Shown here piece after piece: positions 17,986 to 20,083 of a stretch of 57,765 nt of DNA. Under the pieces are notes generated by a model. The model ran no database searches. It saw nothing but the letters and a program-made list of their open reading frames with translations, and was not told the origin of the DNA. This stretch comes from Verrucomicrobiota bacterium (GTDB lineage Bacteria > Verrucomicrobiota > Verrucomicrobiia > Limisphaerales > UBA9464). Where the stretch lies: the NCBI GenBank assembly GCA_947454705.1, contig CANGKZ010000032.1:1-57765 (forward strand). Direction: 5' to 3'. The stretch's first letter is position 1. Each line of letters begins with the position of its first letter. The position numbers and the translations under genes were made by a program.

Positions 17986-18528
17986 ATGACTCCGTTGTTC
18001 TCCTCCGCAGGCACCCGGCGCATTGCCACTCTGGCCGTGGTGATCTTTGCCGCCGACCAACTCACCAAGCTGGCGGTGCTCCGCTGGCTTGGCGTCACGG
18101 AGGAACGGCAGGTCGTGGAGGGATTCTTCAAGTTCGTCCACTGGCAGAACACCGGGGCCGCCTTCTCCATGTTCCGTCAGAACAACAACGTGCTGGGCAT
18201 CATCTCGGCCATCGCGTTGGTGGCATTGTGGGTGTTTCGACGTCACTTCGAGGCGCATCGCCCCCTCGGCCAGCTCGCGCTCGGTCTGCTCTTTGGCGGC
18301 ATCACCGGGAACCTGCTCGATCGACTCCTTCCCACGCGCCATCACGTGATCGATTTCCTCTACTTTCACCTGCATCCGCGCGGCGGCGGGGAGATCGGCT
18401 TTCCGGCGTTCAACATTGCCGACATGGCCATCACCGGCGGGGTCGGATTGCTGATGTTGCTCTCGCTGCGTCCTGAGGCAGAAGCCCCGGCCGCAAACTC
18501 CGGCGCCGCTGCGACCGAAGGCCGATGA
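17986..18528 (+). CDS. lspA: Lipoprotein signal peptidase
   Basis: Inner-membrane aspartyl protease that cleaves lipoprotein signal peptides. It has 180 residues and four predicted helices. The catalytic Asp112 is in GNLLDRLL and Asp146 in FNIADMAI; QNTGAAFSM is the family's loop motif. I use the ATG at 17986; the frame is open upstream, but those residues do not resemble LspA. It is coupled to miaA by an ATGA overlap. The 110-base gap to the glycosylase start is divergent and should hold both promoters. Confidence 0.96.
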   Translation: MTPLFSSAGTRRIATLAVVIFAADQLTKLAVLRWLGVTEERQVVEGFFKFVHWQNTGAAFSMFRQNNNVLGIISAIALVALWVFRRHFEAHRPLGQLALGLLFGGITGNLLDRLLPTRHHVIDFLYFHLHPRGGGEIGFPAFNIADMAITGGVGLLMLLSLRPEAEAPAANSGAAATEGR

Positions 18529-19466
18529 TCCAACCCCTGCTGCTGACCGGGCCCACCGCCTCGGGAAAATCGGCCGTCGGACTCCTGCTCGCCGAGGCTT
18601 TGGGCGGGGAGATCGTTTCGGTGGACAGCATGCAGGTGTATCGCGGACTCGACATCGGCACCGCCAAACCGACCCGCGAGGAACTGGGCCGCGTGCCGCA
18701 TCATTTGATCGATGTGGTCGATCTCACCGAATCGTTCGACGCCGCCCAGTTTGTCCGACTCGCCAAGGCCGCGATGGAGGACGTTCAATCGAGGGGCCGC
18801 GTGCCGATTCTCTGCGGTGGAACCGGATTGTATTTCAACGCGCTGCTCGGCGGGTTGGGCGAGGCGCCGCCGGCAGACCCAGTGGTGCGCGCCGAAGTCG
18901 AGGCCCTGCCCACGGAGGCGTTGCTCGATGAACTGGCGACCCGCGATCCGGTGTTGTTTGACGAGATCGACGTGAACAATCGTCGGCGTCTGGTCCGGGC
19001 CGTGGAAGTGATCCGCATCACCGGCCGTCCCTTCTCTATTCAGCGCGCAGCCTGGCCCGACCGCGCCCCGGGACTCGCGGGACGCAGCTTCGGATTGGAG
19101 CGATCGGTCGAAGATCAACGCCGACGCATCCACGAGCGGGTGGAGGTGATGATGAATTCCGGCTGGATCGAGGAAACCCAGCGCGCGCTGGCGGCCGGGC
19201 TGGCGTCGAATCGAACCGCCGCCCAGGCCATAGGCTATCGATACATCGCCGAATTTCTCCAAGGCGAGCGCACGCGTCTGATGACCGTGGATCTCATCCA
19301 AACCAAGACCCGCCAGTTCGCGAAGCGCCAGCGCACCTGGTTGCACAATCAGTTGGATCTCGAGTGGCTGGAAGTCGCCCGGGAGGAATCTCCAGAGGTC
19401 ACCGCAGAACGAATCCTGTCGAAGCTCACCGCCGGAAGTCCTGCGGGGCCGGTTGCGGAAAAATAA
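18525..19466 (+). CDS. miaA: tRNA dimethylallyltransferase
   Basis: Transfers a dimethylallyl group to A37 of tRNAs reading UNN codons. The 313-residue protein has the P-loop GPTASGKS (9-16), SVDSMQVYRGLDIGTAKP with the catalytic Asp, and the C-terminal DLIQTKTRQFAKRQRTW motif that contacts the anticodon loop. Translation is coupled to lspA. Only a minus-directed terminator follows, so the plus transcript is not obviously ended here. Confidence 0.97.
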   Translation: MIQPLLLTGPTASGKSAVGLLLAEALGGEIVSVDSMQVYRGLDIGTAKPTREELGRVPHHLIDVVDLTESFDAAQFVRLAKAAMEDVQSRGRVPILCGGTGLYFNALLGGLGEAPPADPVVRAEVEALPTEALLDELATRDPVLFDEIDVNNRRRLVRAVEVIRITGRPFSIQRAAWPDRAPGLAGRSFGLERSVEDQRRRIHERVEVMMNSGWIEETQRALAAGLASNRTAAQAIGYRYIAEFLQGERTRLMTVDLIQTKTRQFAKRQRTWLHNQLDLEWLEVAREESPEVTAERILSKLTAGSPAGPVAEK

Positions 19467-19497
19467 AAACCCGGCGGGTCTAGAGGACACCGCCGGG
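19460..19497 (-). terminator. intrinsic terminator
   Basis: CCCGGCGG (19470-19477) pairs with CCGCCGGG (19490-19497) and on the minus strand is followed by TTTTTATTTTT. It terminates minus-strand transcripts coming from 19613-20734 and from the small-RNA promoter. Confidence 0.85.
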
Positions 19498-19531
19498 CAC
19501 AGGAGGAACCGGGGCAAAAGCCCCTGACAAC
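19460..19531 (-). ncRNA. candidate ~70-nt small RNA
   Basis: A minus-strand promoter-like pair (19538-19565) is followed directly by two hairpins and an oligo-U end. Hairpin 1 is GGGGC-TTTT-GCCCC. Hairpin 2 is CCCGGCGG (19490-19497 side) with CCGCCGGG, followed by TTTTTATTTTT, a classic intrinsic terminator. Between them lies the single-stranded CU-rich GGTTCCTCCTGTG, able to pair with Shine-Dalgarno sequences. No reading frame fits. The alternative is that it is only the terminator and 3' UTR of the operon at 19613-20734, but the internal promoter argues for an independent RNA. Confidence 0.4.
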
Positions 19532-19537
19532 GGAGGA

Positions 19538-19565
19538 AGTTTAGAAACGCGCGTCCGCCAGTCAA
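19538..19565 (-). promoter_or_regulatory. promoter of the small-RNA candidate
   Basis: TTGACT (19560-19565) and TAAACT (19538-19543) on the minus strand, 16 bp apart. There is no minus-strand gene downstream before the terminator, so it would drive only the ~70-nt RNA. Confidence 0.5.
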
Positions 19566-19612: not shown

Positions 19613-20083
19613 CTATCGGTAGTGGAAGGAACTGAAGACCAGTCCCCACAAAATCGCGAGCAGCGTCAGGAACAGGAAAATAAACCGGTTGCGCGCCACG
19701 CGTCGTTCGCGTCGCAGCGGTCGTAGCCCATGCAGGCTTCCCGCTGCCAGCATGCGCACCATGGCCGGATTGTTCCCGGTCGGGCCGCTCAGATGATTCC
19801 GAAGGCTCTTCCACAGGGCCACAACATCGAACTTCCGGACCCCGCGATCGTTGAAATGGCCGGTCGAATTGCCACCGGAAGCCGACCGGGCAGAAGCCGC
19901 GGGTAAAGGGGCTGCAAAGCCCTTGCCGGATGCCGACGACGGCTCGGTGGACTTCGGAATCGGAGCGGGCTTGGGCTTCTCGCGGGACAGGCGCTGGATC
20001 TCCTGCTCGAGACGGACGAGATCTGCGCTCAGCGCCTTTTCGCGCTGGGTCATGAGATCGTCCTTTTTCGAAAACAGGGACAT
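19613..20083 (-). CDS. Small membrane protein with N-terminal coiled coil
   Basis: A 156-residue protein not assigned to a family. Residues 8-36 (LMTQREKALSADLVRLEQEI...) form a probable short coiled coil, followed by a Pro/Ser/Ala linker. A conserved-looking middle (KFDVVALWKSLRNHLSGPTG) and a basic stretch precede one C-terminal transmembrane helix (about 133-153). It follows the next gene by 12 bases and shares its layout (coiled coil, linker, C-terminal membrane anchor), so they probably work together in the inner membrane. Confidence 0.65.
   Translation of the reverse strand: MSLFSKKDDLMTQREKALSADLVRLEQEIQRLSREKPKPAPIPKSTEPSSASGKGFAAPLPAASARSASGGNSTGHFNDRGVRKFDVVALWKSLRNHLSGPTGNNPAMVRMLAAGSLHGLRPLRRERRVARNRFIFLFLTLLAILWGLVFSSFHYR

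Follow-up and report, generated by a model that had tools for sequence, protein, structure and literature searches.

We have identified a small RNA gene in the window, a 57,765-nt stretch of DNA from a Verrucomicrobiota bacterium, and as judged from its sequence this gene, kept across a large order together with its own promoter and terminator, is a real element. Computation shows a conserved promoter, both stems, the linker between them, the freestanding position of the gene and a complementarity that recurs. We consider it likely that the product is an independent, intrinsically terminated sRNA of ~70 nt whose linker pairs with a porin Shine-Dalgarno sequence and represses the porin without Hfq. 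The sRNA would be made from its own sigma-70-type promoter and end at an intrinsic terminator, its two hairpins would hold a single-stranded GGUUCCUCC(U) linker, and this linker would pair with the Shine-Dalgarno region (CAGGAGGAAC in the window's own genome) of a BBP2-type porin mRNA, covering the ribosome-binding site and lowering porin synthesis without Hfq. We infer that the gene is transcribed, that the RNA pairs in the cell and represses its target, and that there is an inducing condition.

The element lies on the minus strand between miaA and the gene for a 156-aa protein, where promoter, hairpin, linker and terminator follow one another in this order (Table 1). The first-pass annotation had read a TTGACT-16-TAAACT promoter, a GGGGC-TTTT-GCCCC hairpin, a CU-rich linker and a terminator here, and a recheck of the sequence and coordinates placed all four where it had put them. 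Promoter spacing and conservation point to an RNA start near 19531, and a covariance model matches the window locus at 19464-19531 with 83 bits. The T-run is overlapped by the stop codon of plus-strand miaA (19464-19466). The 156-aa protein has a coiled-coil-like start and a C-terminal hydrophobic stretch, and was matched in 89 of the 96 genomes searched.

Table 1. Positions in the window of the sRNA gene, its parts and its two neighbors.
Feature	Position	Strand	Basis
-35 hexamer TTGACT of the sRNA promoter	19560..19565	-	sequence; TTGAC here in 71/75 homologs
-10 hexamer TAAACT, 16-nt spacer	19538..19543	-	sequence; TTGAC + TAnnnT in 66/75 homologs
small RNA gene, ~68-73 nt, predicted start near 19531	19459..19531	-	block conservation and covariance model
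5' hairpin GGGGC-UUUU-GCCCC	19511..19524	-	fold; covariation G-C/A-U at second pair
single-stranded linker, putative seed, GGUUCCUCCUGUG (DNA GGTTCCTCCTGTG)	19498..19510	-	core conservation, porin complement, co-folding
GUUCCUCCUG in linker, complement of porin ribosome-binding site	19509-19500	-	
terminator stem CCCGGCGG...CCGCCGGG	19470..19497	-	fold; covariation in 10/12 helix pairs
T-run TTTTTATTTTT, TTTTT-A-TTTTT	19459..19469	-	sequence
miaA (IPP transferase, PF01715), convergent 3' neighbor	18525..19466	+	Pfam; convergent at 22/26 family copies examined
156-aa protein, no Pfam family, codirectional upstream neighbor	19613..20083	-	present at 21/26 family copies examined

Taken by itself, the window gives mixed evidence. 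Over 4 kb, a promoter scan returned one match where 0.5 were expected and a terminator scan two where 3.4 were expected; by themselves these scans do not clearly exceed chance, and the case for the RNA therefore rests on comparison. For the 73-nt RNA the folding energy is -35.1 kcal/mol, compared with a mean of -20.4 for 200 shuffled sequences (SD 3.0; z -4.9). A plus-strand reading of the element was rejected, as the hairpins have no T-run after them on that strand.

Among 75 homologs aligned with MAFFT, 93.7% of cells are paired and 13 of the 17 base pairs have changed on both sides, which breaks down into 95.5% paired cells and two-sided changes in three of five pairs for stem 1, and 93.0% and 10 of 12 pairs for stem 2. 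The covariation score of this alignment is 0.424, against 0.237 for shuffles and at most 0.136 when the structure is slid; the alignment was made without reference to the structure, but the structure is the RNAalifold consensus from that same alignment. The linker core GUUCCUCC shows at least 90% identity at each position in the 75 copies. A TTGAC lies 33-50 nt 5' of stem 1 in 71 of the 75 homologs (1.7 expected from shuffles), and in 66 it is followed at 15-19 nt by TAnnnT (0.25 expected). Two of the four exceptions (L188, L190) carry TTGCCT in its place, and in the other two (L172, L173) a duplicated 5' hairpin shifts TTGAC further upstream. This duplication, located between promoter and seed, was observed in L172/L312 (genome G129) and L173/L313 (G265). 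The terminator loop is often GUGCAU in copies from the order (e.g., L165, L175), a constancy that exceeds the need of a mere terminator loop. The locus displays several features of trans-encoded bacterial sRNA genes: its own promoter (by sequence), an intrinsic terminator, a conserved secondary structure and a freestanding gene. The first-pass annotation had proposed a trans-acting regulatory RNA of ~70 nt and had called for a comparison of the stems and the CU-rich linker in relatives. Both stems covary, the linker core is held along with them rather than the terminator alone, and the promoter accompanies the RNA, all of which argues for the proposed RNA.

A DNA search of 96 genomes (the window's own and 95 relatives) found the block in all eight genomes of the genus, the own genome and seven others. 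In the four most distant of these the match covers query positions 79-146 (80-146 in G004), equivalent to window positions 19532-19465, and so extends from the predicted start site as far as the terminator. TTGAC at -35 and UUCCUCCU are present in every sequence of a 17-sequence alignment, in which the spacer drifts. With a covariance model built from this alignment, the RNA was found in 27 of 50 family genomes, counting hits of at least 30 bits with a recognizable seed, altered in some cases; two further hits just above 30 bits were dropped for want of a seed. Weaker second hits of 18-31 bits in family genomes, of which 20 were read, are mostly other GC-rich terminators; UUCCUCC is retained in a few, all from one genus. 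The model matches 180 of the 293 order genomes at E<=0.01, a threshold at which ~3 of the 180 could be chance. A second covariance model, built from the 75 sequences, was applied to 384 class genomes. At E<=0.001 it matched 56, of which 54 belong to the window's own order, and it returned no convincing copy outside the order among these 384. The two weak hits there (G446, G498) were not counted, having no TTGAC in the stretch read and either a broken stem 1 or a changed linker. An exact pattern matched 44 records in the named GTDB collection, with titles that read Verrucomicrobia (several subdivision 3), Verrucomicrobiia, Verrucomicrobiales, Limisphaerales (an order of Verrucomicrobiia), Pedosphaera or, for some, only "bacterium". 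Two other titles stand out: Akkermansia muciniphila for record L213, which is probably wrong, the record apparently belonging to the window's order, and Methylacidimicrobium fagopyrum for L197, which may be a similar mislabeling. The same exact pattern had no match in viral contigs.

A candidate target came from a search for the linker's complement, using GGAGGAAC-N1-9-ATG and hence limited to ATG starts and a single exact pattern. The own genome contains 44 matches at 43 distinct sites, against nine for the reversed pattern, and reading of all 44 revealed one clear gene start, that of a porin. Frames shorter than 90 aa follow 33 of the 43 distinct sites. The other ten comprise the porin, three sites inside Pfam-matched genes (L300, L282, L353) and six frames without a Pfam match (L286, L283, L352, L358, L290, L301), three of which are open for at least 42 codons upstream. 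Apart from the porin, none of the sites in the own genome that carry this 8-nt complement 1-9 nt 5' of an ATG is a clear gene start, and three small frames lacking a Pfam match (L358, L290, L301) may be further ones. A run of the pattern on eight genomes provided leads only, from the matches listed. The porin is a BBP2 beta-barrel protein (PF07642, E 5e-47; G000:C20:17365-18495) with a complete frame of 377 aa and an in-frame stop 13 codons upstream. The unpaired CCTCC had been noted on first pass as able to pair with Shine-Dalgarno sequences, and in the porin ribosome-binding site 10 nt are perfectly complementary to the linker, with which they are predicted to pair.

Porin relatives are present in 45 of 50 family genomes and 200 of 245 order genomes, and 98 of 99 porin starts were read (G195 being skipped), 43 within the family and 55 outside. 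The leaders contain GGAGGAAC in 22 of the 43 and 37 of the 55, respectively (0.02 each in shuffles), and outside the family it is the commonest 8-mer, although the porins are mutually related and these leader counts are not independent. Of the porin leaders, 68 have GGAGG (the 30 others lack it), and in 59 of these the next three letters are AAC, compared with one of 23 other guessed starts with GGAGG in 390 kb made up of the window and 44 named loci. This AAC would be explained by pairing with the small RNA and not by pairing with the 16S anti-Shine-Dalgarno sequence, which we take to be CACCUCCUUU. Co-folding of the full RNA with the porin leader placed the linker on the ribosome-binding site in eight of eight hand-chosen pairs, with both hairpins intact in seven and the first partly rearranged in G008.

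At least eight contiguous Watson-Crick pairs join the RNA and its cognate porin leader in 39 of the 49 genomes in which both sequences were read. Ten pairs fall below eight (G002, G025, G010, G011, G161, G070, G129, G207, G265, G067), three of them with zero complementarity, perhaps reflecting a paralog or a wrong start. In G025 the RNA reads GUUUCUCCUG opposite an mRNA that still reads CAGGAGGAAC, leaving one G-U. The sister genome G037 (support 86/86) carries the same GUUUCUCCUG in its RNA, and its mRNA is now CUCAGGAGAAAC, restoring 12 of 12 pairs, so that this lineage may represent a compensatory path. In G008 the outer pair is lost on both sides and the pairing has moved to CAGUUCCUC/GAGGAACUG. 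Cognate pairing is only modestly better than non-cognate pairing (p 0.015-0.037, from 8-11 hand-picked representatives). Within the family, GGAGGAA occurs in 18 of 23 genomes with the RNA versus 7 of 20 without it (Fisher 0.006, kinship ignored), and of the five with the RNA that lack it (G002, G037, G008, G014, G020), G037 and G008 show the matching change or shift just described. In 12 relatives that form one clade and have no RNA, the porin site has decayed; on the porin tree, RNA and site were lost together in what is essentially a single event, and a test on independent pairs, with five pairs, gave no significance. No RNA was detected in G019 and G035, in which the porin site is kept; the flanking genes nearly touch there, and the RNA is therefore absent from its usual place. 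Outside the family, GGAGGAA is found in 33 of 41 genomes with the RNA versus 8 of 14 without (Fisher p 0.15), where "without" means no hit among the matches listed. Some of the RNA-minus genomes are incomplete, e.g., G048 at 67%.

The gene neighborhood (FREESTANDING) bears on whether an independent RNA is made at all. Among the 26 family copies examined, 17 lie beside both miaA and the 156-aa gene, five beside miaA only and four beside the 156-aa gene only. Outside the family, a convergent MMPL-type gene occupies the 3' side in 47 of 49 copies, 37 of these 47 having on the 5' side a divergent gene whose family is not known, and two of the 49 have neither neighbor. This divergent gene (L142-L192) encodes a ~480-aa protein rich in WPL/FPLY repeats, for which a scan of one member found no Pfam family. 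In every copy where the 3' neighbor was recognized (69/75) it is convergent, and a leader or attenuator is ruled out by this orientation. The first-pass annotation had named a plain operon terminator as the alternative to a regulatory RNA, and a terminator or 3'-UTR of the upstream gene would account for a terminator stem that begins ~115 nt 3' of a codirectional gene, such a gene being upstream in 21 of the 26 family copies. It fits badly, however, with the orientation of the neighbors, the upstream gene outside the family being divergent in 37 of 49 copies, and with the conservation of a promoter, a first hairpin and a linker, and we regard it as hardly credible.

A sequestering RNA, transcribed but binding a protein or the ribosome and pairing with no mRNA, is a very unlikely reading. 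The constancy of GGUUCCUCC would suit a protein site too, but mRNA complements recur across the order, one change is apparently compensatory, and there is no matching Rfam family. It is also rather unlikely, if less so, that the sRNA, though real, has its main target or further targets elsewhere, acting on many mRNAs as a broad anti-Shine-Dalgarno RNA, with GGAGGAAC being kept in porin leaders as a strong ribosome-binding site. The linker contains CCUCC, the anti-Shine-Dalgarno core, and GGAGG is in itself a good Shine-Dalgarno sequence; GGAGGAAC is kept in several genomes without a detected RNA, and neither the association outside the family nor the independent-pairs test reaches significance. 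The restriction of the target search to ATG starts and one exact pattern is likewise compatible with further targets. Against a broad role stand the AAC after GGAGG, left unexplained by 16S pairing and rare at other starts, the putative compensatory change in G037, and the lack in the own genome of a second clear gene start with the 8-nt complement. We thus favor repression of the porin by the sRNA, which is best read as a new family within a known kind, the trans-acting sRNAs.

Comparison with known families agrees with this assignment. A search of the whole window against 4227 Rfam families brought only a tRNA elsewhere to its cut-off; at the locus the best match at E<=10 scored 15 bits against a cut-off of 42, and eight loci from the order gave no Rfam match. 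Seven weak matches at the locus include anti-hemB of Burkholderia (RF02837; 14.4 bits, cut-off 49.5) and sX13 of Xanthomonas (RF02232; 13.6 bits, cut-off 50), both at chance level and like the present RNA in being bacterial sRNAs. Hfq (PF17209) had no match in the own genome, which is 95.7% complete, while a control search matched 5 of 14 genomes; on this one genome the RNA does not belong with the Hfq-dependent sRNAs. MicA/RybB-type sRNAs of enterobacteria are Hfq-dependent and differ from the present RNA in this respect, while sharing the silencing of an outer-membrane protein near its ribosome-binding site. They are named in the work on VrrA of Vibrio cholerae, a 140-nt sRNA whose expression needs sigma-E (PMC2628432). 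As portrayed there, VrrA pairs with an outer-membrane protein mRNA (OmpA) at its 5' region, blocks 30S binding and does not strictly need Hfq (PMC2628432); compared by description rather than alignment, the present RNA differs in its TTGAC/TAnnnT sigma-70-type promoter and its candidate target, a BBP2 porin. NfeR1/alpha-r14 of Rhizobiales is described as an Hfq-independent trans sRNA of 123 nt whose three hairpins all carry CCUCCUCCC, and resembles the present RNA in an unpaired CU-rich anti-Shine-Dalgarno motif over the ribosome-binding site, the motif being ultraconserved and the stems variable (PMC10746234). By the same description, and not by alignment, the RNA reported here falls outside alpha-r14, having ~70 nt, two hairpins and one GGUUCCUCC linker motif, and comes from another phylum.

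In searches of open-access papers we found no prior report of this RNA, and the main texts of two papers on ncRNA discovery (PMC11109978, PMC8632094) do not mention Verrucomicrob or porin. Regulatory RNAs of Verrucomicrobiota have hardly been charted, an Rfam-based 2022 review listing in its Table 1 eight distinct annotated sRNAs for the whole PVC group versus 345 for Proteobacteria (PMC9029176). An order-wide sRNA with a candidate target and an apparent compensatory change offers a testable case of post-transcriptional porin control where no Hfq was found. If true, porin silencing by small RNAs at the ribosome-binding site arose more than once. As a possibility that we advance tentatively, Verrucomicrobiota may have evolved, independently of the enterobacterial porin sRNAs, an Hfq-free, order-wide sRNA for one porin that co-evolves with its target letter by letter, and a 3'-UTR element like its 3' half in G023 and G029, both of one genus, suggests that such a regulator can relocate to the 3' end of a member of the family that it targets. 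In these two genomes the 3'-UTR of a porin paralog (L374 in G023:C1 and L375 in G029:C152; porin copies L369, L372) contains UGUUCCUCCUG and a terminator. This UGUUCCUCCUG is complementary over 11 nt to the ribosome-binding site in a different copy of the porin, and the element resembles the seed-plus-terminator half of the G017 sRNA (L022).
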